From a virus, in the IMG/VR virus record IMGVR_UViG_3300027800_000055, positions 1 to 21,040 of that record: a stretch of 21,040 bases of DNA. One strand, given 5' to 3'. Shown in pieces: positions 1-21,040 of the stretch (its first letter is position 1; the number at the start of each line of letters is the position of its first letter). The notes under the pieces were generated by a model. It was not told where the DNA came from, did no database searches, and worked only from the letters and a program-made list of their open reading frames with translations. The translations under genes and the position numbers were made by a program.

Positions 1-506
1 TTGCTGGCTTCACTGTCAATGGCGGGCATGGTGTCTGCATCCACCGGGGTGGTTTTGGCCGTTGCCCCATGGATGCTGGAACCAACATTCCCGGCATCGG
101 TAACATCCGCCGCGGTTTCAATCCCGGACAATTTGGATTGCTCGGTTGCGGTGAATACCTTGTTGGTTGTCCCGCTGGCATGATTGTCCACATCAAATGC
201 ATCATCATTCACGCTGGTGGGGTCATAGATTGATGCCAGCATGTCACCGCTTCCTGAACCGCCCGCGCCGGTCATGTCCGCCTTGTATTGCACTCCATCA
301 ATTTTGGCCAGGAACCACTTGCCGGTGCTGTTGGTATCATGCCACAACACGGCTTCCCCATCATCCAGCAATGTTGGTTCCGCATCGCTTTGAATAATCA
401 GGATGTGGTTGTACGCCTGTTTTCCCTGCACTTCCAATGATTGAATGCGCCGGGATAGCTGGGCAATGATTGATTGCAGGTCAATGATTTGTGAAGTATT
501 TGCCAC
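1..506 (-). CDS. Tail fibre-like protein, 3' end outside window
   Basis: The frame opens with GTG at 506-504 and stays open to the window edge, giving 168 codons without a stop. The start VANTSQIIDLQ is followed by a short heptad-like helix (about residues 8-30), a WHDTNSTGKWFLAKIDG segment, a Gly/Ser linker (about 85-93) and then typical phage fibre text: TATEQSKLSGIETAADVT and NVGSSIHGATAKTTPVDAD. Phrases of the type 'HGATAKTTPVDAD' recur in phage tail fibre and baseplate appendage proteins, where they form stalk or knob repeats, so a host-contact appendage is the likely role. AAAGG lies about 9 nt before the GTG, and the upstream peptidase gene ends at 527. An ATG at 526 leads at once to a stop, so GTG is preferred. 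The receptor-binding part lies outside the window. Confidence 0.75.
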   Translation of the reverse strand, partial: MANTSQIIDLQSIIAQLSRRIQSLEVQGKQAYNHILIIQSDAEPTLLDDGEAVLWHDTNSTGKWFLAKIDGVQYKADMTGAGGSGSGDMLASIYDPTSVNDDAFDVDNHASGTTNKVFTATEQSKLSGIETAADVTDAGNVGSSIHGATAKTTPVDADTMPAIDSEAS

Positions 507-526
507 GCTGTGATGCCTTTATTTCA

Positions 527-1342
527 TCAAAATTGGGTCCAACCGCCGTTTGTCCCGCCTATCATGTACAACACATCCATGGTGGGCACGGGAATGGCAC
601 CAGGGGTTTCCCGGCGGGCATTCACAAAAATTGCACCATCCGCTTCCCGGAAAAACTTGTACCGTTCACCCTTGGCGGCCCGCATTGCCATGTCCGCGAA
701 AATGTACCCCAGGGCCAGGGTTTCAATGCTCTGTGCTTTGTCCATTTCCAATACCTCTGCAATAATGTTGAACAAATTGGAACCATCTGCTGGCACCGGC
801 TCTGGTGCGGCTTCCTGTTTTCCTATCCTGGGGACCAGGGCGGAACATCCTGATGCAATCCCTGGTGGGGTATTCCAGGCCCGCATGAACAAGCCCTCTG
901 TGGTTCTCTGGTATGCACCTTCCTGTTCCCGGTCACCCTTGAAATTGGGGTCATGGTACACAATCTGGCCGTCCTGATACCCAATCACCAGGACAAAGTG
1001 CCCGCCGGTGAATACCCGGTCCTGTTTGTTCTGGGGCGGGATTTTCCCGTACTGCACACAACAAATGACTGGCTTGCGTTCATCAATGGCCGCTTTCAAT
1101 GCTTCGATGGTCCAGAACCGCTGGCGGTCCACGGCAATGCCGTAGTGTTCACACGCCTGGGCAAGTCTGGGAAACGAAACCACACCATGGGTACCAATCC
1201 AGGCGGTCATGCTATCAATGGCCACATCCGTATTGGCCAGGTATTCCAGGGCCATGTGGATGCATGCGGCCCCGCAGTCATTGACGCTGGCCTGGCTGGA
1301 AAGGGTCCATTGTGATGAATAGGGAACATCCAGGATGGCCAT
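527..1342 (-). CDS. C39-like (papain-fold) cysteine peptidase, probable endolysin
   Basis: This is a 271-residue protein whose first 150 residues match the Peptidase_C39_2 pattern. The start is MAILDVPYSSQW, then Q17 and C23 in a QASVNDCGAACI context, H115 in GGHFVLVIGY and D131 in YHDPN. This gives a Cys-His-Asp triad with an oxyanion-hole Gln six residues before the Cys. Such domains cleave peptide bonds and in phages can serve as murein endopeptidases. The C-terminal part (about 170-271) is not recognised; it may be a binding domain or a second module. There is no signal peptide, so a lysis role would need a holin, and the membrane protein encoded just upstream (ends at 1353) is a candidate. 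GAAAGGG before the ATG supports the start. A virion-associated or maturation peptidase is the alternative. Confidence 0.75.
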   Translation of the reverse strand: MAILDVPYSSQWTLSSQASVNDCGAACIHMALEYLANTDVAIDSMTAWIGTHGVVSFPRLAQACEHYGIAVDRQRFWTIEALKAAIDERKPVICCVQYGKIPPQNKQDRVFTGGHFVLVIGYQDGQIVYHDPNFKGDREQEGAYQRTTEGLFMRAWNTPPGIASGCSALVPRIGKQEAAPEPVPADGSNLFNIIAEVLEMDKAQSIETLALGYIFADMAMRAAKGERYKFFREADGAIFVNARRETPGAIPVPTMDVLYMIGGTNGGWTQF

Positions 1343-1352
1343 GGCGGCCCTT

Positions 1353-1685
1353 TCAATTATTTTCTTCGGTCATGTGGGCAATTAAAAGGTCCAATGCCTT
1401 GGTGATATTGGCATCAATTCTATCCATGGCCGCATTCATGTCATCCAACTGTGCTTGGTCCGCCTTGGTGTCCACCTTGCTTTCAATGGTTTTCAACCTG
1501 TATTCCAGCACTTCCGTGTTGGGGTTGTTTTCCTGGGCGGCTTCCACCCGGCCCATGCGGCTGATAATATCAAATTGCTTGATGGCAATGGTTCCAATGA
1601 TGCCGGTGACAATCAGGAACAGGGCAATGTTGTTGCGTATGAAATTCACCCACTTGTCAATGGTTCCCATGCTGTCCCGTTTCAT
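1353..1685 (-). CDS. Membrane-anchored coiled-coil protein, possible holin or spanin-like lysis protein
   Basis: This is a 110-residue protein read from the ATG at 1685, which has AGGGATG upstream overlapping the stop codon of the fibre gene. A second ATG five codons later (1670) is possible. One hydrophobic segment at about residues 16-38 (NIALFLIVTGIIGTIAI) is followed by a charged heptad-rich helix (about 55-108: EVLEYRLKTIESKVDTKAD and onward). A single N-terminal membrane anchor plus a coiled coil is the layout of inner-membrane spanins and also resembles, in reverse order, XhlA-type holin helpers. Position immediately before a cysteine peptidase supports a lysis role. Family membership cannot be fixed by eye; a structural or baseplate role is not excluded. 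Confidence 0.6.
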   Translation of the reverse strand: MKRDSMGTIDKWVNFIRNNIALFLIVTGIIGTIAIKQFDIISRMGRVEAAQENNPNTEVLEYRLKTIESKVDTKADQAQLDDMNAAMDRIDANITKALDLLIAHMTEENN

Positions 1686-1695
1686 GGTGTCATCC

Positions 1696-2952
1696 CTATA
1701 TCTGAATAAGCAATGTCCCAAAAATTGATTTTGTGCCGGAATTTGTCCACCCTGCTGTATGTGCCGTTGTGTACGCATTGATTGTGTTGGAATTGGCCGC
1801 AATCGCTAGTTTCCCCGGTGATGCTTGCCATGTGCCACCATCGCAAACGGTACACATATTCCCAAATGACCGGCTATCTATATCCGCTATTGTCACGGGG
1901 GCTGTCATTGATAGTGTGGTTGCATTACTTGACCCTTGCACTCTGACATATATCAACACCACACCTTTTTGTGAAATGCTGATATTTGCAATGTTGTATA
2001 CAAATTCCCCAGTAAACCCTTGCGGGTTGCTGTTGAAATTGAAATAAGACGGAAAATCCGGCGGGTCCATATATGAAATATATGGCAAGGTGATTGCCGC
2101 ATTGGCTATGGTGTAATCCGTGTTCACCATGATGGTCACGGTTGTGTTTGGTGCGCCATAACTTGATGAAAGCACCACGGCGTATTTGGTGGTGGTTTGC
2201 ACAAATTTCAACCGGGTACCGCATGTATATTTTGCCGTCTGGTCACCTGGAACGGTGAATGTGGATGCTGATGCATAGGTCCACACCTCGTTTGCCTTTT
2301 GCCAACCATCCCATCCAATCACGCTTCCGCCCAATTTCAGGTCCGGGCCAATCTCTGCCTGGCCGGATGCATTCAGTTTCAAAAGGTCCGCAAACACCCC
2401 CGCGGCGGTCAATGCCTGGATATAGCTGTCATTGGCCAGCTTCACCAGGGAAACCCCGGTGGCAATTCTGCCGTCTGCAATGTTGGCATTCACAATTGAT
2501 GTGGCACCTGATGCCACGGTGATGGTGGCAAGCAAAAGGTGGTTGGCGGGTAGGGTAGGGGCACCCGCGCCAGGCGTACCGGCAACGCGCACAATGGTGG
2601 CAATGTTGCTGGCATTCGCGTCCGCGGCAATCCCGTCATCACATTTGATGGCCACCAGGTCCAGCCTGGTTGAACCACTGGGGTTGGATGCAATCGCCAG
2701 GGTTTCCGCGGCATCACATAGTACCGGCCAAAATTTTGGTTCCCCTGAATAGGCGGTGAAGCTGTCATTGGGAACATACGCAACACCCGCGGCAATCAAC
2801 ACATTCATGTCAGGGCTGGCGTTCTGGGTGACTTTGAACCCGGTGGCAATGTCCACAATCCCGGCACCCACTAGCAGGTCCCTGGCCCAGACAAGGTGCT
2901 GGCCTTCGCCGTGGTTGGTCATGCCATCTTTGACTGCAACATATATTGCCAT
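1696..2952 (-). CDS. Tail fibre / baseplate appendage protein
   Basis: This is a 418-residue protein starting MAIYVAVKDGMTN. The N-terminal half (about 1-190) resembles the upper part of baseplate or fibre proteins: a beta-rich region with LDLVAIKCDDG, GAPTLPANHLLLATITV and an IADGR motif. The C-terminal half (about 200-418) is a beta-rich domain starting WDGWQKANEVWTYASA, with CGTRLKFVQTT and NTDYTIANAAITLPYIS, a kind of text common at the ends of phage appendage proteins. The likely role is cell-surface recognition or attachment to the baseplate. It has its own promoter candidate (2987-2995) just after a terminator, and GAAAGGGAAAA is a strong ribosome site 4-5 nt before ATG. Which host molecule it binds cannot be read from the sequence. 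Confidence 0.75.
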   Translation of the reverse strand: MAIYVAVKDGMTNHGEGQHLVWARDLLVGAGIVDIATGFKVTQNASPDMNVLIAAGVAYVPNDSFTAYSGEPKFWPVLCDAAETLAIASNPSGSTRLDLVAIKCDDGIAADANASNIATIVRVAGTPGAGAPTLPANHLLLATITVASGATSIVNANIADGRIATGVSLVKLANDSYIQALTAAGVFADLLKLNASGQAEIGPDLKLGGSVIGWDGWQKANEVWTYASASTFTVPGDQTAKYTCGTRLKFVQTTTKYAVVLSSSYGAPNTTVTIMVNTDYTIANAAITLPYISYMDPPDFPSYFNFNSNPQGFTGEFVYNIANISISQKGVVLIYVRVQGSSNATTLSMTAPVTIADIDSRSFGNMCTVCDGGTWQASPGKLAIAANSNTINAYTTAHTAGWTNSGTKSIFGTLLIQI

Positions 2953-2986
2953 TTGTTTTCCCTTTCATGGATTATTCGCCGCACTC

Positions 2987-2995
2987 ATTATACCA
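2987..2995 (-). promoter_or_regulatory. Extended -10 promoter upstream of the fibre gene
   Basis: On the minus strand this reads TGGTATAAT, an exact extended -10 box (TGn plus TATAAT). No good -35 lies at normal spacing, as expected for extended -10 promoters. The following bases, GAGTGCGGCGA, share G at +3 and CGG at +6 to +8 after the box with two other promoters in this window. The T of TGG is the last base of the terminator T-run, so the promoter restarts transcription exactly where the tail operon ends. Confidence 0.65.
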
Positions 2996-3029
2996 AAAAA
3001 AACGGCTGGCAATTATTGCAGGCCAACCG
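2995..3029 (-). terminator. Rho-independent terminator after the tail hub gene
   Basis: On the minus strand, stem CGGTTGGC pairs with GCCAGCCG (8 bp with one G-U pair) around an 11-nt loop and is followed by eight T. The tail hub stop codon (TAA, 3015-3013) lies inside the loop, so the stem overlaps the end of that gene. It separates the tail-assembly transcript from the fibre and lysis genes. Confidence 0.8.
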
Positions 3030-4038
3030 TATATTTGACGCTTTCACGGCCATCCTGGTCCAATGACAAGTCCCACCCGTAAACCCGGAACGCATTGACA
3101 ATGTTGTATATTCCATGCCTGACCCTGATTTGTACGGTGTCACCCAGGTCAATTGAACCAAAGGTTGGTTCCGTGCCGGGTACCTGGACAAATTCCAGGG
3201 AAACCAGGGGTTGCTTCTGCCGCCTGGTCAAATCGTTGCCATAATCATCCATTGTATCTGCCACGGTCACATCTTGTAGGGCAATGGCCTGTTGGCGTAA
3301 TTTGATGATGGCCTGGCTGGTGCTGTCCACCACTGACCGGCGCAAATCCCCGGACCCGTACCCGGTTGACAATACCAGGGCTTCATTGCAGGGTTGGGCA
3401 AAATCTTCCACAATCGTGGGCACTTCCCCCACATTCACGCCATATTCAAATATACCGTCCGTCAATGAACGGTCCGTGCCCTTGGGGAAATACACATTGA
3501 AAACCTTGTCCGGGGTTATCTCAAAATCAAAACCACTGGCCACTTTGGACAAATTCACAATGGCATCCATGATGTTCTGGTTTTTATAGGTGCGGTCCCT
3601 TGGCTTTGATGCCACAATGGTCCCCTCGGTGATGCCCAGGTCACCATTGGTCAATGCCTGGCTTTCGGCAATCAATGTGGCGGCAATGGTCCCGGCATCG
3701 GTTGCGGCAAAGGTGCGCACGGCCCCAGTATACCTGGCTGACAACTGTTCAAACCATTCAAAACTGATGATGTTGACCAGGTTGGTGCTGTCTTTCACCA
3801 GGCCACCGCGCCGGAACGCCTGTTCACCGGCCCAAATCTTTTTCCCATCACGCCACACCTGGGTCTGATACCGGCGCAACGCGGTCAAAGATGCCAGCTT
3901 GGTGTCTGTCACTGGGACCCCAAAGGTGCATTGGCCGTACCCATTCAACACGGAACCGCATTGCAAGCCCTTGTGGTGGCTCAATTCACCAAGGGCCACG
4001 CCGTTTTCATCGGCAATGATGATGTGATAGTCTGCCAT
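3013..4038 (-). CDS. Tail hub / baseplate protein (siphovirus Tal- or Gp37-like)
   Basis: This is a 341-residue protein directly after Dit, with a TAATG overlap, which is the usual place of the tail hub that closes the tube. It starts MADYHIIIADENG; the first 100 residues are beta-rich (YQTQVWRDGKKIWAGEQAF), a strand pattern typical of siphophage hub N-domains. An IMDAIVNLSKVASGFDFEI segment follows near residues 155-173, and the C-terminal region (about 290-341) has FGSIDLGDTVQIRVRHG, as in gp27-like hub domains. No peptidase domain follows, so this is the short hub form. The stop codon lies in the terminator loop at 3013-3015. Confidence 0.75.
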   Translation of the reverse strand: MADYHIIIADENGVALGELSHHKGLQCGSVLNGYGQCTFGVPVTDTKLASLTALRRYQTQVWRDGKKIWAGEQAFRRGGLVKDSTNLVNIISFEWFEQLSARYTGAVRTFAATDAGTIAATLIAESQALTNGDLGITEGTIVASKPRDRTYKNQNIMDAIVNLSKVASGFDFEITPDKVFNVYFPKGTDRSLTDGIFEYGVNVGEVPTIVEDFAQPCNEALVLSTGYGSGDLRRSVVDSTSQAIIKLRQQAIALQDVTVADTMDDYGNDLTRRQKQPLVSLEFVQVPGTEPTFGSIDLGDTVQIRVRHGIYNIVNAFRVYGWDLSLDQDGRESVKYTVGLQ

Positions 4039-4868
4039 TATATCCCCCGGTATGCATCACGGTATGAAACCACCAAATTGGTGCCCGTATCCCCGCCGGT
4101 CTGGGCATTGAAAATCAGGGTGTTGTTGCCTGGTACAAATTCAACCCAGTCACCTGAAAACACGGAAAACACATTCTGGGACCCGGCCAGCTTCACCGTG
4201 CGGGCGGCCACATCCACTTCAATCCATTCACCGGCTTGCAGTGTGGTGGAAAGCAAAAACATTTCCCCGGTATCTGCATTCTGGACCGTGAAATTGGTGC
4301 CTGGTCCGTATACTTTGAAAACAGGGGTGGACCGTTCATTGCCGCTGTTGGTCGCGCTGGTGACCACGGTGGCACCAATGGCCAGGGTGGATGGCACGGT
4401 GGCCGGGATGGTTTCCCCACCCATGAAATTGGTGGTGCTGGTGTTCACGGTCAAAAGGTCCTGGCCGGACAAACGCCAATCCGGGCATGTCATTTCCACC
4501 ATGTATGCATTCACGCCCATGGAATAGGGGGCAATGAACCGGGTGACAATGCCATCCACCTGCAAGGGCAACCCATCATAGGTGGTGAATTTCAAACGCA
4601 CCAGGGAACCCTGGCCAATGACCTTGAGAAAGGCACGGCGCAAGGCCCACATGGCGGTATTGTCCAGGCCCAGGAATATCCCGGACCAGGAAATGACCCG
4701 GCGGCCAAATTTGCTGTCAATGAATTGTGCGCCATCAAAGGCGGCAAAATCATCAATGACCGGGCGGATGCTGGGGTATTCAAACCCTTCATACCGCTGT
4801 ATCACAACCCCGCTGACCAGGTCATCAAAGGTGAAAGTATCGGACCCGCGGCTGGCAATAATCTGCAT
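4038..4868 (-). CDS. Distal tail protein (Dit-like siphovirus tail component)
   Basis: This is a 276-residue protein between tape measure and hub. The N-terminal half (about 1-150) shows the Dit pattern: an initial beta hairpin, then FGRRVISWSGIFLG, then FLKVIGQGSLVRLKFTT and YMVEMTCPDWRLSG. The second half (about 160-276) is the galectin-like C-terminal domain, with STPVFKVYGPGTN, a GEMFLLSTTLQAGEWIEVD segment and VEFVPGNNTLIF, which matches siphovirus-type tail component C-terminal domains. Dit forms the hexameric ring joining the tail tube to the tip. The start ATG lies one base after the tape measure stop, with AAGGGGAA inside the end of that gene as ribosome site. Confidence 0.85.
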   Translation of the reverse strand: MQIIASRGSDTFTFDDLVSGVVIQRYEGFEYPSIRPVIDDFAAFDGAQFIDSKFGRRVISWSGIFLGLDNTAMWALRRAFLKVIGQGSLVRLKFTTYDGLPLQVDGIVTRFIAPYSMGVNAYMVEMTCPDWRLSGQDLLTVNTSTTNFMGGETIPATVPSTLAIGATVVTSATNSGNERSTPVFKVYGPGTNFTVQNADTGEMFLLSTTLQAGEWIEVDVAARTVKLAGSQNVFSVFSGDWVEFVPGNNTLIFNAQTGGDTGTNLVVSYRDAYRGI

Positions 4869-4869
4869 G

Positions 4870-6729
4870 TCAATTTCCCCTTGCTAAACCGGGCACCAGG
4901 CCAACCCGGAAACCAAATTCCCGCCCTATGCTTTGCAGGTCAACCGCACTATTCACATTCTGGATGGCAATGTCAATTTGCTGGTTCACCCCGCCGCCGG
5001 TCACCATCGCTTTGCTTTCCCGGTTGCTGTACACATCGGAACCCCTGGGCAAATTCACCAATTCCGGGCCGGTTTCACCAACCCAGGACAATCCACCCAT
5101 CCAATTGCGCACACCATTGGCATTGTGCCCAAACATGTTGGCGAACATCCCAGCAATCCCCCCAGGGTTTTTGGCGGCTTCCGCTTCCGCCTGGGCTTGC
5201 TGGGTCTGGGCTTTCAATACATTCAAATCCTGCACTTTTTCCAGGTCACCGGCTTCCTTTGCCTTGGCAATTCGTTCATCAATCATTCCAATCTGTTCAT
5301 TCATGCTGTCAATGTTGCCTTGCAGGGCATTCACATTGCGCATCAATTCCTGGACCTTTTTGATTGCTTCCATCACCGCGCCAAAGGTCACCACCAGGGC
5401 AATGGGAACCGCCAGGGCCATCCAGGTGGTGGACAAGGCCATCAGGGGGATGTGGGCCGCGGTCAGGATAGCGGGCAAGGTCACGGAAAAGAATGTCACC
5501 ACCGCCGCCCATGCCGCCTGGGCAAACATCACGCCGTTCAATATCGCCCAAATGGCAACCAGGCCACCAATCACGCCGGTCAACAATTCAACCGCGGCCT
5601 TGTTGTCATTCAGGAATTGCAAAACGGCGGTTGCGGTATCCAGGACAAAACCAATGGCATCTTTCAGGGCATTGAACCCCAGCACCACCAGGTCACCCAG
5701 GACCGGCAACACATCTTTGACAATGAACCCAATCAGGTCCGCCAGATATTTGTTGTAAAATTCCGCCACGGCATCTGCCAGGTTTTTGAATTTTGGCAAT
5801 GCCTCGTTCACTATCCAGCCCACCAGGTCTGAAATAATAGGCACCACCACTTCATTGAATGTGGAAAATGCTGATTTGGCTTTGTCGATGCCCTTGGTTA
5901 TCAAATCAGTGAATGCGGGCACCAGGTCTTTGATGGCGGGCAACACCTTTTCATTCAACCAGGCGGCAAATTCCTTGGCCACGGGCAACATGGCGGTACC
6001 CACCTGGGTCATAATCTGGCCAAAACCGTCTTTGATGTTCGACATGGCACCCAGGAATGTCTGGCTTTGCTTTTCCATCATGCCGCCAAACTGTGAACCT
6101 TCCCCGGTCATCGCTTCCATGGCCTTCTGCACCTGGGGGAACCCCACTTTGCCCTTGCTCACCAGGTCCTTCACCTTGTCCACGGACACGCCCATGGTAT
6201 CTGCCAGGGCTTGCATCATGGGCACCCCGGCATTGGTGAACTGCATCAGGGTTTCCCCGGTCAACTGCCCGGCCACCTTCACCTTGCCAAAGGCACCAAC
6301 AAGCTGGTCAATGGGCACACCAAGGCCGCTGGCCAGGTCACCCAATTGGGTCATGGCGGGGATGATGCTTTCCTGGGCAAACCCGTATGCCAAAAGCTGT
6401 TTTGATGCAGTGATGATGCCCGGCAATTCAAAGGGTGTTTTGGCGGCGAATTTGGTAATGTCTTTCAAAAGGTCATTGGCTTTTTCGGCACTGCCCAGCA
6501 TGGTGGTGAACGCCACCTGGGATTGCTCAAAATTCCCGGCCATGGTCAGGCTTTCCTTGGCAAATTTGGCAATGCCAATGGCGGCCAGGGCGGTCCCTAC
6601 AACCCCGGCAACCCTTTTGACATTGTCACCAAAATCATTGGTGCTTTCCTTTGCATCGGCCATGCCCTTGTTGAAATTGGACATGTCCGCCTTGATGTTT
6701 GCAACCACATCGCCAATGGTTAGTGCCAT
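4870..6729 (-). CDS. Tail tape measure protein
   Basis: This is a 619-residue protein, the longest of the window, placed after the chaperones. The N-terminal region has the conserved tape-measure signature: MALTIGDVVANIKADMSNFN, then FEQSQVAFTTMLGSAEKA, TPFELPGIITASKQLLAYG, QLGDLASGLG and TLMQFTNAGVPMMQALAD. Hydrophobic segments lie around residues 380-460 (VELLTGVIGGLVAIWAILNG; PIALVVTFGAVMEAI). A coiled-coil stretch follows at about 465-525, and an NWMGGLSWVGETGPELVNL segment near 545 is typical of tape-measure C-termini. At roughly 0.15 nm per residue (general knowledge of tape measures) it would set a tail of about 90 nm. No peptidase or transglycosylase motif was seen. Confidence 0.92.
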   Translation of the reverse strand: MALTIGDVVANIKADMSNFNKGMADAKESTNDFGDNVKRVAGVVGTALAAIGIAKFAKESLTMAGNFEQSQVAFTTMLGSAEKANDLLKDITKFAAKTPFELPGIITASKQLLAYGFAQESIIPAMTQLGDLASGLGVPIDQLVGAFGKVKVAGQLTGETLMQFTNAGVPMMQALADTMGVSVDKVKDLVSKGKVGFPQVQKAMEAMTGEGSQFGGMMEKQSQTFLGAMSNIKDGFGQIMTQVGTAMLPVAKEFAAWLNEKVLPAIKDLVPAFTDLITKGIDKAKSAFSTFNEVVVPIISDLVGWIVNEALPKFKNLADAVAEFYNKYLADLIGFIVKDVLPVLGDLVVLGFNALKDAIGFVLDTATAVLQFLNDNKAAVELLTGVIGGLVAIWAILNGVMFAQAAWAAVVTFFSVTLPAILTAAHIPLMALSTTWMALAVPIALVVTFGAVMEAIKKVQELMRNVNALQGNIDSMNEQIGMIDERIAKAKEAGDLEKVQDLNVLKAQTQQAQAEAEAAKNPGGIAGMFANMFGHNANGVRNWMGGLSWVGETGPELVNLPRGSDVYSNRESKAMVTGGGVNQQIDIAIQNVNSAVDLQSIGREFGFRVGLVPGLARGN

Positions 6730-9255: not shown

Positions 9256-9902
9256 GTCAACATGGTCCCTTTAATGTTTCGGATGTTTTTGAGCAATACG
9301 CGGGCTTCCGGGCACATGTCGCGTTCTGCCCCAGGCTTCATGGTATAGGAATAATCACCGCCAATGCTTTCGCTTTGGTAGTCACTGCCACCCATGAAAA
9401 AATCCACCCCTTTGGAAAGGATGTATTTGCACTGGGCCAGGGTTGCCCGCTTCACCGCTTCCGGTATGGCAATATACCAACGGTCAATATAGAAATTGGC
9501 ATCCTGTTCCCTGGGGAATTTGGCAAGCTGGCGAATGGCATACACACTGGTACTGTCCGGGGTGGGGCTGAATGCATCGGCCACGGTGATTTTGTGGTCC
9601 GTGGGGCTGTAGGCCGTGATGCGGCGCACCTGGCCCTTGCCTACCCCGCCAATTATTTCCACCTCACACCCAATGAACGCATCAATGGCATACCCGGAAA
9701 GCGCGGATGTGGTTGCATCCGTGATGCTGGTGCTGGTCGCGCTGTCTGCCTTGCCCATCCAGGTCAATGAAATGTGTTTCACCTGGAATTTGACCCAGGC
9801 ATCAATCATTTCCTCTGCCATGTCCACCACGGCTTCTGACACGGTTGACCCGGCATAGGTGGTGGCTTCGGCGGCGGTAACATATCCACGGCGTATGGTC
9901 AT
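9252..9902 (-). CDS. Head-tail connector (adaptor) with inserted beta domain
   Basis: This is a 216-residue protein. The N-terminal part (RRGYVTAAEATTYAGSTVS and the following acidic helix) and the C-terminal helices (about 145-216, AIPEAVKRATLAQCKYILSK) match the helical head-tail adaptor family. Between them, about residues 60-125 hold a beta-rich segment, AFIGCEVEIIGGVGKGQVRR followed by ITAYSPTDHKITV and ending SVYAIRQLAKF. It resembles the small beta domain found in many phage fibre and decoration proteins. AAGAGGTG six bases before the ATG at 9902 fixes the start; a GTG three codons upstream (9911) is less likely. A promoter box lies just upstream. Confidence 0.75.
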   Translation of the reverse strand: MTIRRGYVTAAEATTYAGSTVSEAVVDMAEEMIDAWVKFQVKHISLTWMGKADSATSTSITDATTSALSGYAIDAFIGCEVEIIGGVGKGQVRRITAYSPTDHKITVADAFSPTPDSTSVYAIRQLAKFPREQDANFYIDRWYIAIPEAVKRATLAQCKYILSKGVDFFMGGSDYQSESIGGDYSYTMKPGAERDMCPEARVLLKNIRNIKGTMLT

Positions 9903-10854: not shown

Positions 10855-10857
10855 GGT

Positions 10858-12351: not shown

Positions 12352-13299
12352 TTAGGTGTTGCCGCCCAATTCATGGGAAATTGCAACGACATGTTCCGGG
12401 CGGATGATGGCCACACCGTACAGGCAATCCAGGGTGACCTGAACGGCCAGTTTCATGGCATCATAGGAAACGGTGGAACGCAGGGCCAGGCCGGTGCGCT
12501 CGTCCAGTACCGTGGTCTGCTGGGCACCAAGGCCGTTGCCAGCGTCCGAAAGGGGGCGCATGCAAAGGGCAATGGCATCAGGTCCATAAACCAGGTCATA
12601 ATAGGTGTCCGGGCTGGTGGTGGCATCAATGCCAACAATCTGGCTTTCATCAACCTGGATGCCGCGTACCATGTTGGCAAGTCCGGCTTCGATTGCGGAT
12701 TTGTCACCCTTGGCATAGGCATTGGTCAGGTTGGTGTTGTTCAAAAGGGCTTCATAGGCATACGGGTCAAGCTGTGCGAACACGGGGGCCAGCTTGTTGA
12801 CCTTGTTTGATACAAGGGCGCGGCGGGCGGCGGTCAGGGCTTTGACCCAGTCCGCGGAATAGGTGCCAATGGCCAGGGTGGTGCCAGCAGATGCGTACAG
12901 GTCCACAAGGTCCTGTTCGATGGCTTCGGCCAGTACCATGGCGGCATCACGGGCATACCCTTCCATGGTGCCGGGGATGGCCATGGCTTTCGCCACATCT
13001 TCAATGATGAATGTCACTTCCTTGTGCTTGTTCAGGGTCACGGTGACTGCATCATCACTGGGGGCCTGGACGGTGACATTGAATTTGGCGGTTTTGTTGT
13101 TCACGGAAAGCGCGCCACGCTTGGGAACGGTCAGAACATCGCCACGGGTGGCGAATGCGGTGCCAAAATCCTTGCGGACATTTTTGGCCATGGAAAGATA
13201 CTTGCCCAGGTATCCCAGGCTTTGGTTTGCGCTGTCAACGGTGATTGCGGGAATGAAATTTGCCAGCTCGGCGGCTCCGATTGCTGAATAGTCTGCCAT
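12352..13299 (-). CDS. Major capsid protein (HK97 fold)
   Basis: This is a 315-residue protein directly after the scaffold gene and before a strong terminator. It has the P22-coat/HK97-like pattern: an N-arm with AAELANFIPAITVDSANQSL, DVLTVPKRGALSVNN, an E-loop and P-domain region, the spine helix around residues 110-150 (DAAMVLAEAIEQDLVDLYAS), and a C-terminal A-domain with YDLVYGPDAIALCMRPL and VAIIRPEHVVAISH. It forms the icosahedral shell. There is no N-terminal prodomain or protease gene nearby, so assembly should use the separate scaffold. The ribosome site is weak (GAAAG 11 nt from ATG), which is odd for a highly made protein; coupling from the scaffold gene 31 nt upstream is possible. 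Confidence 0.88.
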   Translation of the reverse strand: MADYSAIGAAELANFIPAITVDSANQSLGYLGKYLSMAKNVRKDFGTAFATRGDVLTVPKRGALSVNNKTAKFNVTVQAPSDDAVTVTLNKHKEVTFIIEDVAKAMAIPGTMEGYARDAAMVLAEAIEQDLVDLYASAGTTLAIGTYSADWVKALTAARRALVSNKVNKLAPVFAQLDPYAYEALLNNTNLTNAYAKGDKSAIEAGLANMVRGIQVDESQIVGIDATTSPDTYYDLVYGPDAIALCMRPLSDAGNGLGAQQTTVLDERTGLALRSTVSYDAMKLAVQVTLDCLYGVAIIRPEHVVAISHELGGNT

Positions 13300-14103: not shown

Positions 14104-14919
14104 TTACGGTTGCATGTTGGCAATATCCGGGTGATACGGCAACAAGCGGTGTTTGCAATTTGGGTGTAAAAGTCCCCCGGCCTTGGCATCATCCACCGTG
14201 GGATAGCCTGGTGTGTCCCCGGTGATAGACAAAATGCGGCCTTCCCAGTCTGCACACCCCTGGTGGTCGCTGTTGTGGTCGCTCACCTGGACCAAATCAA
14301 AGCCCTGGGAAAGCATACGGTTTGACAATCCACGGTTGGTGGTTTCCACCATTTTGGTCCTGGTCAACATTTCGGCGTACCGTTCAATTGTCCAGGTGTT
14401 CCCGCCCCGGTCTGTCATGCCCAGGGTTTCATCCTTCAACAATTCCTGGATGCGGCCACTGATACGCTGGCGGGTCGCGGCGGTGATGCGGCCATCTGCA
14501 AACAAACCCTGCAACCGTATCTTCCGGGCTTCATCAAACACCCTGCCGGTTGACCGCTTCATGCTGTCCATGCCATCACCAAACCGCAAAAATATGTCAT
14601 CCAAACTTGCCTGGATGGCTTCCTGGTCAATCTGTAGCATGCCAAAGCCCGCTTTGCCGGTGTTGATGGCATCAAATGCCAGCTTGGCACCCACGCGGTA
14701 ATGGTAAGCCGCTTCTGCCGTTATCACGGGCACCGCCTTGGCGTTTATCTCTGCCAGGATGGCATCCACCTGCTTCTGAATTATGGTCAACTGGTCCCGG
14801 CGGGCATCCGTGATGCCAGTGCGCAGAACACGCGCAATGCGGGCACTTGCTTGCGCATAGATTGCCCGCACTTTGTCCACGGTCACTTCAACCCTTGGTT
14901 CAAATGGTTCAATGGCCAT
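14104..14919 (-). CDS. Minor capsid / head morphogenesis protein (SPP1 gp7, MuF-like)
   Basis: This is a 271-residue protein after the portal gene. The N-terminal two thirds is helical. Residues about 190-265 hold the minor capsid protein 2 / MuF-type domain: a TRTKMVETTNRGLSNRMLSQ helix, DLVQVSDHNSDHQGCADWEG, and the end motif GGLLHPNCKHRLLPY. Cys and His residues of the C-x-x-W and HPNCKH motifs are typical of this family and may bind metal. These proteins bind the portal inside the prohead and help assembly or DNA entry. The start ATG at 14919 has AAAAGG about 8 nt upstream, just after the portal stop. Confidence 0.85.
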   Translation of the reverse strand: MAIEPFEPRVEVTVDKVRAIYAQASARIARVLRTGITDARRDQLTIIQKQVDAILAEINAKAVPVITAEAAYHYRVGAKLAFDAINTGKAGFGMLQIDQEAIQASLDDIFLRFGDGMDSMKRSTGRVFDEARKIRLQGLFADGRITAATRQRISGRIQELLKDETLGMTDRGGNTWTIERYAEMLTRTKMVETTNRGLSNRMLSQGFDLVQVSDHNSDHQGCADWEGRILSITGDTPGYPTVDDAKAGGLLHPNCKHRLLPYHPDIANMQP

Positions 14920-14930: not shown

Positions 14931-16337
14931 TTACTGGCCCGCTGGCGGGGTGGGGAATGTCCCGTCAAAGGTGGCCTGGTCACCATCAATATCTTCCAAT
15001 TCATCTTCCGCCTGTTCCTCTGTGGTACCCTGCAATGTCTGCACGGCTGTTTTCTTTGACATGATGCCGCTTTCCACCTGCTTCACCACCATGTCCACAC
15101 TTTCCACCGCGTCATCCACAATGCCATCACTCCACACGGTCTGGATGCGTTCCACATCGGTCACCCGGATGCCGCCGCAAGTGTACCCATTGGCCTTGCT
15201 CAATTCCTGGGAAATTTCACACACTTCTTTGATGCTCTGGTCATAGTACAACCGTTTGCGGTTGCGCTTAGCAATGGTACGCAATAGCCGCATTTTCAAT
15301 GCCCGGCCCGTTTCGGCCTGGCCGGACCCCATGCCAAACACATCCGTGTTGGTTTCGCTGGTCAGGAACATAAACTCCACAATTTTATCAATCTGTTTGA
15401 ATGCGCTGTCCAGGTTGGCATTCCAGACGATGTATTCAGGCTTTCCGCCACCATCGCTGGACATTTCAATCATGCCCAGGGCTTCTTTGCGCACCTGGCC
15501 CTGTTCATCCAGGACACCTTCCGGCACGGCCAGGATGGGGTCACTGTGTTTGTCCAGGATTTGGTCAATCATGGTCATGCGGTTGTTCAATGCCCGCTGT
15601 AGGCTTTCCAGGTTCAAAAAGTCTGATGTTCCAAAATAGTGGGCATTCCCCCTGGGCCGGTAATTCGGGGTGTGGACAATCATGTTGTGGCTGATGCCGG
15701 TGTTTATTTCCGCGGCATAGGCTTTGGAATATGTGGCATTGTAGGCATCCACACCAATTTCCTGGCCAATGGTCCAGGTCCCGGCCTTGTGGTCACCTGT
15801 CAATTCAAATACCTGGGTGGTCACCTTGGGTGCTTCATGGGTTTCCACCACCAGGAATGTGGCCACCTTGCCCGCACCATCATCTTGCATTTCAGTCCAT
15901 GCAAACACTTCCTTTTTGGGGTGTTGTCGGGCATTCAGTACATCCAGGACCGGGAAATATATGGCGGGGTTGGTGTCATCCACCACAATTTCATTGTCCA
16001 CCACCCGGACCTTGAAAACGCTGTCACCCAGGGCGGCATTGCTGACCGCACTTTCAAAAAACTGGGTTTTCAGTTTGTTGCGGTGGTATAGGTTTTCAAT
16101 AAATTCCTGGTTTTTATCGGCCTTCAATTGCACTTCCTCACCAAATAGCATGTCCGCGCTGACATTGGCCACCAGGGAATTGAAATTCACCATGATGTAC
16201 TTCATCCTGGCATCCAATGCCCGCTTGGTTGTCCCCAGGGCCAGCACTTCAAAATGGGAACCTTCCAGCAATTTGGCGTTTCTGGCATACCTGGCCAGGC
16301 GTTCCGCTTCATTTGGGTATGGGAATACTTTTTCCAT
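14931..16337 (-). CDS. Portal protein (SPP1 gp6-like)
   Basis: This is a 468-residue protein from the ATG at 16337 (MEKVFPYPNEAERL), which has GGAAGGG six bases upstream; an ATG five codons earlier (16352) is less well placed. The family pattern is clear: an N-terminal wing with NSLVANVSADMLFGEEVQL, then FFESAVSNAALGDSVFKVRV, a region PNYRPRGNAHYFGTSDFLNL leading to SLQRALNNRMTMIDQILDKH, then DVFGMGSGQAETGRALKMRL (stem/clip region) and an acidic C-terminus (TTEEQAEDELEDIDGDQ). Portals form the dodecameric vertex through which terminase pumps DNA. It has its own promoter candidate in the 57-nt gap after the large terminase gene. Confidence 0.9.
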   Translation of the reverse strand: MEKVFPYPNEAERLARYARNAKLLEGSHFEVLALGTTKRALDARMKYIMVNFNSLVANVSADMLFGEEVQLKADKNQEFIENLYHRNKLKTQFFESAVSNAALGDSVFKVRVVDNEIVVDDTNPAIYFPVLDVLNARQHPKKEVFAWTEMQDDGAGKVATFLVVETHEAPKVTTQVFELTGDHKAGTWTIGQEIGVDAYNATYSKAYAAEINTGISHNMIVHTPNYRPRGNAHYFGTSDFLNLESLQRALNNRMTMIDQILDKHSDPILAVPEGVLDEQGQVRKEALGMIEMSSDGGGKPEYIVWNANLDSAFKQIDKIVEFMFLTSETNTDVFGMGSGQAETGRALKMRLLRTIAKRNRKRLYYDQSIKEVCEISQELSKANGYTCGGIRVTDVERIQTVWSDGIVDDAVESVDMVVKQVESGIMSKKTAVQTLQGTTEEQAEDELEDIDGDQATFDGTFPTPPAGQ

Positions 16338-16372
16338 TGTCAACCCTTCCATCTGTGATTTTATCCGCCCAA

Positions 16373-16381
16373 ATTATAGCA
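16373..16381 (-). promoter_or_regulatory. Extended -10 promoter upstream of portal
   Basis: On the minus strand this reads TGCTATAAT, an exact extended -10 box, in the gap between large terminase (stop at 16395) and portal. It is followed by TTGGGCGGATAAAATC, with the G and CGG shared by the other two promoters. TTGATG lies 14 bases upstream, too close for a standard -35. Confidence 0.65.
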
Positions 16382-16394
16382 CAAAACATGTTCA

Positions 16395-17864
16395 TCAAAT
16401 CGCCTTGGTGGTGTACGCCTTGGCGCGTTTGTGGACCACCTTGGCACCCTGGATGCATAGGAACGCGGCAAACAAAAGGTCATCATGGAACCCGTTTTCA
16501 TGTTCCCGCTTGCCATTGGGCTTTTTGATGAATGTCTGCATTTCCTTTATCGTTTCCGGGTCAAATATCCCCAATTCGCCATCATCAAACATTCTGTTAA
16601 ATTCATCAATCAATAGGTCCCGGTTGGTGGCGGTGGTACGCCAGCCCATGGTTTCCTTTTCGGTCTGCTTTTGCTTGTCCACGGTCACTTCCAGGAATAG
16701 GTTTTTGTACCCGGCATTGTGGATGGTCAAAACGGTGGTCAGTCCGGTGTTGTTCCGTTCCGGGATTATCAGGGCATCATTGAAATACCTGGCCACCTCA
16801 ATTGCCAATATACCCAATTGGTCCGGGCGTATGGTGTCATCCCGGAACGCGGCCACAAAATCCTTGGTGTTTTTATCATACACTTTCAATGTGTTGGCAT
16901 CTTTTTCCACGCCCTCTGCCGTATCCGCCCCCACAACATATTCATGGGCCGGGTCAACATCAATATAGATTTTCACCCCATTCATCATTTTGACTGGCAC
17001 CTGGGGCCGTATGGCCTTCACCCTGGATTGATTGAACACAAAATGCCCGGTGGCCAAAAAGCATTCCATGGCATCAAAGGGGTATTCCTGTTTGACCTTG
17101 TGGCGCAGTATGCGGGCCTTCTGCATGTACCAATTCAATTGCCCCATGGTGATGCCAAACTGGCCAATGGGGTCTGGGTACAATTCAAACGCCCTGGCAA
17201 TTTCGGCATACTCACCCAGCACATCCTGGCCGGGTGCCAGGTCCAGGCTGTATTCCTGGGCAATGGTCCAATTGATGAACACCGGCCAAAATTCGTTCTT
17301 CCCGGCAACGGCATCACTCCACAATTCTGAAAAGTGATTGAACCCATTGGCCGTGCTTTCAATTATCAGGTACCCATTGGTCGGGATGGCTGGGAATGTA
17401 CCTTCCAAAAAGTCCGCCACCATGTCCGGGCGGAAAAAGGCATATTCCGATACATGGACCCGCTGGAATGTGCCGGACCGGGCATTGGTGTCCACTTTGA
17501 TGCTGGAATGGGTGGCACCAAATTCCAATTCACGGATGCTGTTGTACTTCACATCCATGGTTTCCCGCACCAGGGGCGGCAAATTGTCAAAGGCATATTT
17601 GATTTTTTTGAAAATGGCCTCTGAATTGTCCAGGTTGTCCGCAATGGTCAGGATGTGTTTGTCATGCTGTACCATGGCCACATCCAGGTCATCCATCTTT
17701 TCATGGGTGGTCATGCCAAGCTGGCGGGCCTTCAACATCAGGATGCGGTTGTGGGCTTCCTGGTGCTTCCTCAATACCAACTGGGCGGCATTGGGCCGGA
17801 ACTGTTGCCGGTTGCCGTCTTTGTTCTGTATCCAAAAGTATTGGTTGAACAGGCGTTCAATCAT
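16395..17864 (-). CDS. terL: Terminase large subunit (packaging ATPase and nuclease)
   Basis: This is a 489-residue protein. ATPase part: KARQLGMTT (residues 45-53) is the Walker A; VHVSEYA (136-142) is the Walker B with Ser in place of the first Asp and catalytic E140, a form seen in other SPP1-type terminases; ESTANG (169-174) is the coupling motif. Nuclease part: D314 in VVGADTAEG, E369 in IIPERNNTG and D461/D462 in FHDDLL are the metal-binding acids of the RNase H fold. The length is normal and no residue is missing. It cuts concatemeric DNA and drives it into the prohead through the portal. The start overlaps the upstream small membrane gene by 8 nt. Confidence 0.95.
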   Translation of the reverse strand: MIERLFNQYFWIQNKDGNRQQFRPNAAQLVLRKHQEAHNRILMLKARQLGMTTHEKMDDLDVAMVQHDKHILTIADNLDNSEAIFKKIKYAFDNLPPLVRETMDVKYNSIRELEFGATHSSIKVDTNARSGTFQRVHVSEYAFFRPDMVADFLEGTFPAIPTNGYLIIESTANGFNHFSELWSDAVAGKNEFWPVFINWTIAQEYSLDLAPGQDVLGEYAEIARAFELYPDPIGQFGITMGQLNWYMQKARILRHKVKQEYPFDAMECFLATGHFVFNQSRVKAIRPQVPVKMMNGVKIYIDVDPAHEYVVGADTAEGVEKDANTLKVYDKNTKDFVAAFRDDTIRPDQLGILAIEVARYFNDALIIPERNNTGLTTVLTIHNAGYKNLFLEVTVDKQKQTEKETMGWRTTATNRDLLIDEFNRMFDDGELGIFDPETIKEMQTFIKKPNGKREHENGFHDDLLFAAFLCIQGAKVVHKRAKAYTTKAI

Positions 17865-17964
17865 ACTTGCCCGCCGGGTACTTCAAACACTGGTCAATTG
17901 CCGCCACCAGGAACAGGACCACACACGCCGCCCCAATCATAAACCCGGCAATGAATGCAATCAT
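17857..17964 (-). CDS. 35-residue membrane protein, DUF3789-like
   Basis: This tiny gene sits between peptide deformylase and large terminase. Its ATG overlaps the deformylase stop (ATGA), and its stop lies 8 nt inside the terminase gene. The protein begins MIAFIAGFMIGAACVVLFLV, a single hydrophobic helix with GxxxG-like small residues, and ends in a charged KYPAGKYD tail. Short phage proteins of this design are grouped as DUF3789, whose function is unknown. Tight translational coupling on both sides supports a real gene. Confidence 0.65.
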   Translation of the reverse strand: MIAFIAGFMIGAACVVLFLVAAIDQCLKYPAGKYD

Positions 17965-18416
17965 TTGGTCACCTCGTAAATGTACAGGCAATCAAAATGG
18001 TCAATTTCATGCTGGAATATGAACGCCCTGGGACCGGCCAGCTTTTCATTGGTTTCTGGACCTTCCCAGGTGGATGGGGTTGTGTACATCACTTCACACT
18101 TGTGGAACCGTTGCACAATCACCGTGCGCTTGTCCGGGAAACTCAAACAACCTTCCGCATTGTCCACTGGGGTCCTGGTGTGCCGTTCAATCGTGGGGTT
18201 GATGATAATTTCCCCGGCCTTGGTGACAAAGAACCGCAGGGGGTCATCCTGTGTCACCTGCTGGTGCGCAATCGCCTGGCCGCCGGTATATAGGCCAATC
18301 GGTTCATGGCACATTTCCATCATCACCTTGGCATCTTCAATGACCCTGGGCATGTCTGCATCTTCAACCACCCGGCTTTTGACCTGGTGCGGCTTCACAT
18401 ACTGTTTGGCAATCAT
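17961..18416 (-). CDS. def: Peptide deformylase
   Basis: This is a 151-residue protein with all three deformylase motifs: motif 1 as GGQAIAHQ (45-52, degenerate from GxGLAAxQ, with the key Gln Q52 kept), motif 2 as EGCLSFP (88-94, canonical), and motif 3 as HEIDH (136-140, canonical). C90, H136 and H140 should hold the metal and E137 act as the catalytic acid/base. The enzyme removes the formyl group from new N-terminal methionine in the cytoplasm. It is shorter than most bacterial forms (about 165-190), as are known phage forms. It overlaps the small terminase gene by 4 nt. A catalytically active enzyme is likely; the loss of the Gly in motif 1 is the only weak point. Confidence 0.93.
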   Translation of the reverse strand: MIAKQYVKPHQVKSRVVEDADMPRVIEDAKVMMEMCHEPIGLYTGGQAIAHQQVTQDDPLRFFVTKAGEIIINPTIERHTRTPVDNAEGCLSFPDKRTVIVQRFHKCEVMYTTPSTWEGPETNEKLAGPRAFIFQHEIDHFDCLYIYEVTK

Positions 18417-19000
18417 TTTTCAACCCCCTGTTGTAGCTGGCGCAATTCGGCAACCATTTCCTCATGGGTCATGGTGACAACCTTTGAACGGTCAACAATC
18501 AAGCCCTGGCGTTTGTAGTACAAGGCCATGCCGCTGACCTTGGCGGGCATGTTCTCACGCTGGGCACAAACGAACCCCAATTCCGTGTCCACAAAGTCAA
18601 CATTGGTGTCAATCTTGGTCAAAGCGGCCACACATTTGATTATCTTTACATTTCTCAACAACCGCCAGCTACATGTGGCGGCCACCGCCTGGTCAGTCAC
18701 GGACATATAATTCAAACCGTATGCTTCGATGTATGACCGGGTGCCATTGCCAAAAAAATCAGGGTGTGTGGCGTACAGTAAAGCAAAATGAAATTGCTTT
18801 TGGGTCAGGTCAAATTGCTTGGCACCCGTGGTGATGCGTTCCACCTGTTCCACCACTGCAACGCAACTTTCATGTGCCCACTTTGTCTTGGTCAACCGTT
18901 CCTTTTCATCATCCTTCCCAATGGCCATGGCGCAAATAGCACACATCAATGGCTTTTCAATGGGCTTTTGCTTGGCCTTTTTCGGTTTGGCTTTCGGCAT
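18413..19000 (-). CDS. terS: Terminase small subunit with N-terminal zinc-finger-like region
   Basis: This is a 195-residue protein two genes upstream of the large terminase. The core (about 63-125) has the small-terminase DNA-binding start FDLTQKQFHFALLYATHPDF, then GNGTRSYIEAYG (an 'LT.KQ..F...Y....NGT.A...AYG' pattern). A VAATCSWRLLRNVKI segment follows, matching 'AA..AS.LLRN..V' of the family. Before it lie a Lys/Pro-rich start (MPKAKPKKAKQKPIEKP) and C20-x2-C23 with H43-x2-C46, a possible zinc site. The start at 19000 has GGGGAAGGAAA; an ATG at 18946 would drop the basic tail but keep the cysteines. It binds the packaging site on DNA and hands it to the large subunit. Confidence 0.85.
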   Translation of the reverse strand: MPKAKPKKAKQKPIEKPLMCAICAMAIGKDDEKERLTKTKWAHESCVAVVEQVERITTGAKQFDLTQKQFHFALLYATHPDFFGNGTRSYIEAYGLNYMSVTDQAVAATCSWRLLRNVKIIKCVAALTKIDTNVDFVDTELGFVCAQRENMPAKVSGMALYYKRQGLIVDRSKVVTMTHEEMVAELRQLQQGVEK

Positions 19001-19169
19001 TGGTTTCCTTCCCCACTAAATTCAAAAACGCTTCCACATCCAGGCATTCAAACCCGCATCCCTGGCAATGCCATGGGGCCTGGACCGGCAACAATTCCCT
19101 GGTGATGTTGTCACCCTGGCACACGGGGCACTTCGGCTTCAATGTCAGGTCAATGGTTTGGTCAATCAT
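18957..19169 (-). CDS. Small zinc-ribbon protein
   Basis: This is a 70-residue protein with two CxxC knuckles (C14-x2-C17 in KCPVCQG and C35-x2-C38 in WHCQGCGFEC), a classical zinc ribbon for nucleic-acid or protein binding. A charged, Gln-rich tail follows. The start overlaps the stop of the nuclease gene (ATGA), and the end overlaps the small terminase gene by 44 nt. The specific function is unknown. Confidence 0.65.
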   Translation of the reverse strand: MIDQTIDLTLKPKCPVCQGDNITRELLPVQAPWHCQGCGFECLDVEAFLNLVGKETNAESQTEKGQAKAH

Positions 19170-19612
19170 TCAATCCACCCAGGTATGCATCCGGCCATGT
19201 TTTTGATGCCCTTGTACACCGCAGTGTCAAACACATCCACCTTCACATCCGGGAAATACTTTGCCATCCGTTTCAGTTTGGTGCGGCTCTTGGGGTCCAT
19301 GTACCCCTTCACTTCAATGAATGTCTGGGTGCCATCGGTTTCATCAACGCGAAAGTCCGGGGTGTAGGATGTGACCCCGCGCCGGATGCCCTCAAACCAA
19401 AAGCATTTCGGTTCGTATGCCCAGCCCAGGATGGTCCCGTTGCATTTCATCCATTCCAGCCAGTGCGCCACATTCACTTCCCATTTGCTCTGGAAATAGT
19501 GCTTTTGGCCACCAATGGTGTGGAACCCCTTTTGGACATTCGCAAAATGGTGTGGTTTCTGTTTTCCGGCAATCATTGCCCGGTACTGTGCGGCACTGAT
19601 GTGTTCAATCAT
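19166..19612 (-). CDS. PD-(D/E)XK nuclease, DUF1064-like
   Basis: This is a 148-residue protein from the ATG at 19612 (MIEHISAAQYRAMIAG). Conserved text: HYFQSKWEVNVAHWLEWM (E45), GWAYEPKCFWFEG, TSYTPDFRV (D86) and TFIEVKGYMDPKS (E100, K102), then TKLKRMAKYFPDVKV. This is the PD-(D/E)XK nuclease core in the order E, PD, ExK, and the flanking pattern 'Y.SKWE...' with 'EVKG.md.ks..K.k....yp' resembles phage DUF1064 proteins. It may act as a resolvase or debranching nuclease before packaging. The start is chosen because ATG overlaps the stop of the upstream micro-ORF. An in-frame start at 19744 would run over two other genes. Confidence 0.75.
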   Translation of the reverse strand: MIEHISAAQYRAMIAGKQKPHHFANVQKGFHTIGGQKHYFQSKWEVNVAHWLEWMKCNGTILGWAYEPKCFWFEGIRRGVTSYTPDFRVDETDGTQTFIEVKGYMDPKSRTKLKRMAKYFPDVKVDVFDTAVYKGIKNMAGCIPGWIE

Positions 19613-19686
19613 AGGGTGAAGCCCGCTATAATGCCAGCTATCACGGCCAGTATATACCAAATGCACCCGCAATTCATGTTCTTCAT
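19609..19686 (-). CDS. 25-residue membrane peptide
   Basis: A micro-ORF begins MKNMNCGCIWYILAVIAGII and ends with GFTL and a TGA that overlaps the ATG of the nuclease gene. AGGGAAAAGG lies a few bases before its ATG, a clear ribosome site, and the previous gene stops 14 nt upstream, so it fills a gap that would otherwise be empty. It is one hydrophobic helix with a Cys pair (C6, C8) near the N-terminus. The function is unknown; it could act only to couple translation or be a small membrane factor. Confidence 0.55.
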   Translation of the reverse strand: MKNMNCGCIWYILAVIAGIIAGFTL

Positions 19687-19700
19687 GGCCTTTTCCCTGG

Positions 19701-19943
19701 TCAAAAAATGTCTGGATTGATTTGGACCACGCCGCCATCACCATCCAGGTGCGCCGGGCATGCCCAAGGCTTTGGCGGTTTGTTCTGTCCTGGGAAATAG
19801 GTGCGCATGGGTGTGAACCCGCGCTCCTTCAACATCACCTGCACTTCCAAAAAGCTGACAATTTCCGCAATGATTTGGGCCTGATTGTCCTTTGTGATGT
19901 ACTCACCCAGGGCGCGGATGGTTTCAATTCTGGGCTGGTTCAT
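19701..19943 (-). CDS. Small unknown protein
   Basis: This is an 80-residue protein starting MNQPRIETIRALGEYITKDN. The first 40 residues are helical and acidic/hydrophobic (AQIIAEIVSFLEVQVMLKER); the rest is Pro/Gly-rich (PMRTYFPGQNKPPKPWACP). No recognised motif. ATG overlaps the upstream stop (ATGA), and its stop precedes the micro-ORF. Probably an operon accessory gene. Confidence 0.6.
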   Translation of the reverse strand: MNQPRIETIRALGEYITKDNQAQIIAEIVSFLEVQVMLKERGFTPMRTYFPGQNKPPKPWACPAHLDGDGGVVQINPDIF

Positions 19944-20110: not shown

Positions 20111-20132
20111 GATGTTCCTTTCAAATGGTATG

Positions 20133-20411
20133 CTATATGGTCCCCAGGCAATCCTTGTGGATGCTGTACGGTTCCCAGCAAAAGAATGCCATAGTTTCCG
20201 TGCCGCCATTCGGCTTGTTCGCCATGCAGGTAAATGCGGGCACCTGGCCCTTGCGTATCATCATCAATTCGCCAACATCATGGGTGATTAAAAGCTGGTC
20301 AGTCAATAACCGCTGGGGCACTCCGGCAAAAAGTCCCTGGTGCCCGTATGCTTCCCCCTTGGTCAAATTATGCACCCGGCATTTCAGGATGCCACCACCT
20401 TTTGCAGGCAT
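20133..20411 (-). CDS. Small unknown protein
   Basis: This is a 92-residue protein from the ATG at 20411 (MPAKGGGILKCRVHNLTKGE), with AAAGGATGG a few bases upstream and overlapping the end of the previous gene's stop region. It has Gly-rich start, beta-rich middle (LTDQLLITHDVGELMMIRKG) and a Cys/Trp-containing end (AFFCWEPYSIHKDCLGTI). I do not recognise it. An in-frame ATG at 20444 inside the previous gene is possible. Confidence 0.55.
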   Translation of the reverse strand: MPAKGGGILKCRVHNLTKGEAYGHQGLFAGVPQRLLTDQLLITHDVGELMMIRKGQVPAFTCMANKPNGGTETMAFFCWEPYSIHKDCLGTI

Positions 20412-20421
20412 TTTCCATCCT

Positions 20422-20919
20422 TTAGACAAAAGTGAATTGGCCATCCGGCCCGGCTTGCATGTGCATGGTTTCCCATTGCAGGGTGGCCAGGGCTTGCACG
20501 TAGGGTGTGGACCTGGACACCATGCCCACATTCACCAGGTCCGGGGAATGTTCAATCACCTGGTTGTGGAACACTTTGACCCATTCAGGGATTGCCACCT
20601 CACCGCGTAGGAATTTTCCAGCGCGTTCCGTGATTATCCAATGCGCCGCTTTGTGCTTCCCGTTCTCACGGTGCTTTGCCACCAGGCCATGGAACCGCAT
20701 TTTGGAAAGCTGTGACCATTCGCATTTTTTCAATTCGTTTGGTGTGCCATCCATGTCCCGTATCACATCCACCACATACCCGCCACCCTTGGCCATGGCG
20801 GCGCGTTTCATCTTTATCAGGACCGCAATCATAATGGGGGCAACCTTGTACTTGTATGCCTTCATCGAATGCCCGCAATGGGGGCAATGTTCCTGTTCCA
20901 ATTCAACCTGGTTTTCCAT
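20422..20919 (-). CDS. Zinc-knuckle plus probable winged-helix protein
   Basis: This is a 165-residue protein. A CPHCGHS knuckle (C12, C15) near the start has no obvious second cysteine pair. Residues about 28-105 look like a winged helix: helix PIMIAVLIKMKRAA, helix NELKKCEWSQLSKMRFHGLV, then AHWIITERAGKFLRGEVAI, as in small DNA-binding proteins of phages. So it may be a regulator or a DNA-packaging accessory factor. AGGAAAA about 9 nt upstream supports the ATG at 20919. The fold assignment is by eye. Confidence 0.6.
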   Translation of the reverse strand: MENQVELEQEHCPHCGHSMKAYKYKVAPIMIAVLIKMKRAAMAKGGGYVVDVIRDMDGTPNELKKCEWSQLSKMRFHGLVAKHRENGKHKAAHWIITERAGKFLRGEVAIPEWVKVFHNQVIEHSPDLVNVGMVSRSTPYVQALATLQWETMHMQAGPDGQFTFV

Positions 20920-20946
20920 GGCTTTTTTCCTGGGATTAAAAAATTA

Positions 20947-21039
20947 TTAAATGCCCGCGACTGGCCCCACAAATTGAACCGCACCACGAATTTCCATGCT
21001 GTATGTCCCGCCCAGGTGGAATTTGTCCAGGTCCGCCTG
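20947..21039 (-). CDS. 3' end of an unknown gene (5' end outside window)
   Basis: One of the three minus-strand frames at the right edge reads as clean coding sequence, QADLDKFHLGGTYSMEIRGA then VQFVGPVAGI and TAA at 20949-20947. Only 30 residues are visible, too few to name. The stop is followed after 27 nt by the next gene, consistent with the same operon. Confidence 0.5.
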   Translation of the reverse strand, partial: QADLDKFHLGGTYSMEIRGAVQFVGPVAGI

Positions 21040-21040
21040 G

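Follow-up and report, generated by a model that had tools for sequence, protein, structure and literature searches.

In double-stranded DNA phages, avoidance of Type II restriction sites takes the form of short palindromes eliminated by synonymous choice, with differences among related phages, and for GATC a restriction enzyme directed at the word is documented as the cause; the word is under-represented in 45 of 46 phages with a host that encodes such an enzyme (PMC6286503). In the same survey no avoidance of Type I sites was found, avoidance of Type III sites was rare, and there was no systematic strand-asymmetric avoidance (PMC6286503). Strand bias is known from phage T7, as Type III enzymes cleave only between opposed sites and a phage carrying its sites in one orientation escapes; the biochemically characterised Type III sites are all 5–6 bases long (PMC3874151).

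The DNA analysed here (the window) is a linear virus record of 21,040 bp, IMG/VR record IMGVR_UViG_3300027800_000055, and comprises a siphovirus structural module, with all recognisable genes on the minus strand. Comparison with PHROGs identified the small (18413–19000) and large (16395–17864) terminase subunits and the portal protein (14931–16352; 3e-48), which served as the query for relatives and for the tree. Also recognised in the protein search of the window were a minor head protein of 271 aa (14104–14919), the major head protein (12352–13299), head-tail connectors, the tape measure protein (4870–6729), the distal tail protein Dit (4038–4868) and a C39-like peptidase that is a probable lysin (527–1342). 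A peptide deformylase gene (17961–18416) lies between the two terminase genes, a glycosyltransferase and an FkbM-type methyltransferase (10240–12261) are located between the genes for the major head protein and the connectors, and a DUF1064 protein (19166–19744) matches phage Holliday junction resolvase/endonuclease families; these too are on the minus strand. None of the window proteins searched was recognised as the product of a restriction, DNA methylase or anti-restriction gene.

An exact string search found GATC on neither strand of the window, as the preliminary description had reported, against expectations of 80 copies from base composition alone, 52 from a maximal-order Markov model, 50.1 ± 7.2 from dinucleotide shuffles and 77.4 ± 7.4 (minimum 58) from 200 synonymous-codon shuffles in which every protein was kept. 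The expectation of about 80 sites given in that description agrees with the composition figure and, with the other models, including the Markov and codon-shuffle comparisons it had proposed, giving 50–77, the zero is far beyond chance. The synonymous shuffles preserve proteins and codon usage and do not preserve dinucleotide bias, which is why the Markov and a phase-aware dinucleotide model were run alongside them. There are 431 codon pairs in the window at which some synonymous choice would yield GATC. Selection by GATC-specific restriction is partly supported, as the best account of this part of the pattern, and taken alone such a loss is ordinary among phages.

The loss is not confined to GATC, contrary to the first reading of the zero as specific to that word. 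In coding sequence, GANTC, GANNTC, GCWGC and GAAN8TC are each absent where the synonymous shuffles predict 43, 46, 41 and 43 copies, respectively, and CCAN7TC occurs once where 29 are predicted, all five counts lying below those of all 200 shuffles. Across the whole fragment (1–21040) GATC and the first four of these words have zero copies and CCAN7TC has two, whilst ACGT is found once, at 20498–20501, against 26–46 expected (44 by codon shuffle). Because the words emerged from a scan of many candidates, the exact boundaries of the targets are uncertain and provisional. That a single GATC-specific enzyme produced the whole pattern is consistent with the complete absence of GATC and with the precedent for such restriction in phages, but it is very unlikely, because words that do not contain GATC are equally or almost equally absent, among them GANTC, GANNTC, GCWGC, GAAN8TC and, on one strand, CTC and CTTC. 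As a complete account it is refuted by these words, and the MboI/DpnII-type enzyme suggested in the preliminary description holds up for the GATC part only.

An unusual host could also have imposed a mutational or codon-usage bias that made the missing words. Dinucleotide biases are present in the window (CpG and TpA low, TpG/CpA high), as are rare codons (GCT, TCT, CTC and TTA), but this explanation is highly improbable, as the exact zeros remain when codon usage is preserved, and GANNNTC is present in normal number (55, with 59 expected from synonymous shuffles) beside zero GANTC and GANNTC, something that a smooth mutational bias does not do. The phase-aware dinucleotide model, which is independent of the codon-shuffle assumption, gives observed/expected counts of 0/27 for GAN1TC, 0/52 for GAN2TC and 5/31 for GAN9TC, with GAN5TC, GAN8TC (70/52) and GAN11TC (57/51) normal. 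The word losses are independent of codon usage. GGCC, CCGG, CATG and GTAC are normal or enriched by synonymous shuffle and GGCAG is not depleted; the first three, described earlier as common, were counted 189, 171 and 155 times. TCGA, noted earlier as rare but present, does occur (10 copies); its scarcity reflects dinucleotide bias, since the Markov model expects only 4. TTAA, TCGA, CGWCG and CTTA/TAAG are not counted as firm losses, since their rarity is attributable in part or in full to dinucleotide bias (that of CG and TA for the first three). CCWGG is enriched three-fold, with 237 copies on both strands and 227 in coding sequence against 79 expected.

The bipartite losses resemble Type I recognition sites in that the missing words, GAAN8TC and CCAN7TC, consist of two half-sites separated by 7–8 bases, although their full-length specificity is provisional. 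GAAN8TC is missing at that fixed spacer with neighbouring spacers present. A scan of bipartite words found zero-count words with expectations of up to 25 in the window, whereas in six codon-shuffled copies such words had expectations rarely above 9–12 and at most about 12. These losses differ from the published survey, in which avoidance of Type I sites is not reported (PMC6286503), and the window departs from the Type II pattern of that survey in purging several site classes at once, non-palindromic and bipartite words included.

In the same pipeline, no eliminated word was found in lambda or in Paenibacillus phage Tripp, whose portal is homologous to that of the window, and in T7 the eliminated words were only those containing GATC or CCWGG. 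The known EcoP15I strand bias of T7 was reproduced (36:0), with 36 copies of CTGCTG and none of CAGCAG.

The window also lacks short words on one strand. Throughout its length (1–21040), the coding (minus) strand is nearly free of CTC, with 2 copies where 65 are expected in coding sequence (220 when only third-position GC is kept), and of CTTC, with 3 copies (2 within coding) where 53 are expected, and both coding counts are below all 200 synonymous shuffles. The plus strand holds 92 CTC and 154 CTTC, that is, the coding strand has 92 GAG and 154 GAAG, and the asymmetric words are purged from one strand only. These expectations were computed on a one-strand gene set, from which spurious antisense ORFs that mask the CTC signal were left out. 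GAG and GAAG are also somewhat under expectation on the coding strand by synonymous shuffle, and CTGCC, GCTGT and CTGTC are each absent from it. For CTC, a tRNA effect or codon avoidance was rejected as the cause, since copies outside the reading frame are lacking along with those inside it.

The few surviving copies have common flanks. The only two GAG on the plus strand are at 4626–4628, where the coding strand reads ...TTCTCAAGG, and at 9291–9293, where it reads ...TGCTCAAAA, and both read CTCAA; all three plus-strand GAAG (493–496, 2758–2761 and 19618–19621) are CTTCAC in the coding sense. These shared flanks are a hint of longer words as the actual targets. On the minus strand the ribosome-binding core GGAGG has no copies and AGGAG has 2, with AGGGG (18) and AAGGG (44) common, and the purge seems to reach ribosome-binding sites.

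A clade of relatives carries one-strand losses as well, and more strongly than the window itself. In the coding strand of the record L019 (24,468 bp), GCTG is absent against 106 CAGC, CTGC occurs once against 110 GCAG, TTGG once against 79 CCAA, and CTTC not at all against 22 GAAG, with GAAG surviving almost only before T. GCTG is missing from the coding strand throughout the clade (L019 with L018, L021 and L022), the losses of CTGC, TTGG and CTTC in L019 itself going beyond this. Given this survival of GAAG before T and the flanks of the exceptions in the window, the targets proper may comprise several longer words.

Both likenesses and differences appear when these losses are set beside T7 and EcoP15I. 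In both cases an asymmetric word stands all or nearly all in one orientation in a one-directional genome, but T7 lost a 6-base word to a known enzyme, whereas the losses here concern words of 3–4 bases (CTC and CTTC; GCTG, CTGC and TTGG in L019) and the enzyme is a putative one. The coding strand of T7 lost the form containing A, whilst that of the window lost the form containing T. A literature search found no strand-specific word loss of such kind reported beyond T7.

The removal of CTC and CTTC from one strand is what would be expected under Type III or Type ISP enzymes, which need two opposed sites in order to cut, so that placing all sites in one orientation would suffice to escape them. 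The chance that this Type III-like reading of the one-strand losses is right is put at slightly under even, and the label is held back because the lost words have 3–4 bases where characterised sites have 5–6, and because the genes all run one way, so that a nuclease acting on RNA might also account for the strand pattern. The genes are unidirectional in the window, and essentially so in L019, and the DNA strand and the mRNA strand coincide here.

Toxin ribonucleases with sites of 3–5 bases exist, and a host or phage-triggered ribonuclease that cut CUC and CUUC in phage messages could have produced the one-strand losses: every strong one in the window and the L019 clade (CTC, CTTC, GCTG, CTGC and TTGG) falls on the coding strand and affects each of the three frames. 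This is nevertheless unlikely. Other losses in this genome, those of palindromes, GCWGC and bipartite words, affect both strands, as suits targets in DNA, and the lost words change between lineages, as restriction sites do. In addition, where coding strands are rich in purines the pyrimidine-rich orientation is cheaper to lose anyway, and T7, a proven DNA-level case, has the same kind of bias. Taken together, the losses of 3–4 bases in the window (CTC, CTTC) and the L019 clade (GCTG, CTGC, TTGG, CTTC) raise the possibility, advanced here tentatively, of a strand-specific host defence with very short targets, whether a DNA system of 3–4 base specificity that is Type III-like or nicks, or a nuclease of phage messages. 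If true, such a defence would be unlike any Type III enzyme characterised so far.

The portal search returned 73 viral contigs and 12 genome or MAG contigs, and the closest GenBank phages by portal are Paenibacillus phage Tripp and its relatives (Halcyonevirus), at about 31% identity; in Tripp no word is purged by the test used for the window. Most portal relatives retain GATC, and the set of purged words varies from phage to phage. The relative L006 (35,878 bp record; portal 51%) has purged CATG, GGCC, TCGA and GCGC and, in its 21 kb locus, is free of CCWGG and GCWGC too, a multi-site purge different from that of the window. GATC is lost in L009, ACGT in L023, and CCGG and TCGA in L027; in L080 (G004:C13, 34,298 bp) GAGA and TCTC are absent from both strands, CCGG is absent and CGCG occurs once. 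The tape-measure relatives L097–L099 showed no purge of GATC or CTC.

On the portal tree (52 rows, 9 of them GATC-purged) the distribution of GATC loss needs 7 changes, at least 6 of which are forced by supported branches, and the loss is lineage-specific and not a property of this type of phage. L002, a close neighbour of the window on the tree, keeps GATC (13 copies in 7 kb), and in L019 it is enriched, as it is in the L019 clade, with 323 copies in 24 kb and 288 in coding sequence against 177 expected. Such a distribution suits host enzymes that change, and does not suit a trait fixed in the phage, such as Dam/MutH processing. GATC is the site of Dam and MutH, and the preliminary description had also considered Dam-like methylation or MutH-type processing; loss of GATC through Dam-like methylation or host processing of the MutH/SeqA type is, however, extremely improbable. 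Relatives with the same module keep or enrich the word, its loss recurs on the tree with those changes, unrelated words are lost equally, and no Dam- or MutH-type gene was recognised among the window proteins searched. The losses are thus neither limited to GATC nor family-wide.

Restriction in general is very likely to have caused the purge. It is also likely, if a little less so, that this siphovirus lineage purged the recognition sites of several host restriction-modification systems, largely by synonymous change. The lineage would have been exposed to several restriction systems as its hosts changed; GATC (the MboI/DpnII/Sau3AI class), GANTC, GANNTC and GCWGC would have gone from both strands as under Type II enzymes, the bipartite GAAN8TC and CCAN7TC would have been removed as under Type I enzymes, and CTC and CTTC would have been cleared from one strand as under the orientation-dependent enzymes considered above. 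What the counts demonstrate is the losses, their lineage-specificity and the strand asymmetry; the enzymes, their types and the host we infer. The published survey does not describe bipartite losses in combination with an almost complete loss of very short words from one strand (PMC6286503), and it is the breadth of the purge, above all the one-strand loss, that is out of the ordinary. If confirmed, word gaps in metagenomic phages could serve as a record of the restriction repertoire of the host, one-strand systems included, and could help to connect phages with hosts not yet in culture.

A megablast of the window against phage genomes gave no match, and a first scan of a genome collection for relatives found nothing. 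The second scan yielded only distant portal relatives, the nearest MAG hits having 36–38% portal identity; they lie in bins of Gottesmanbacteria, Patescibacteria, Moranbacteria and Omnitrophota, and in Firmicutes. The link to the Omnitrophota bin was discarded, as its other contigs have 54–63% GC against 41% in the phage contig. The GC content of the L080 contig differs from that of the other contigs of the MAG with which it was binned. In L002, the minor head ORF (2439–4115) encodes 558 aa against 271 aa in the window; the middle of it resembles an intein, and an antisense ORF of 265 aa lies within.
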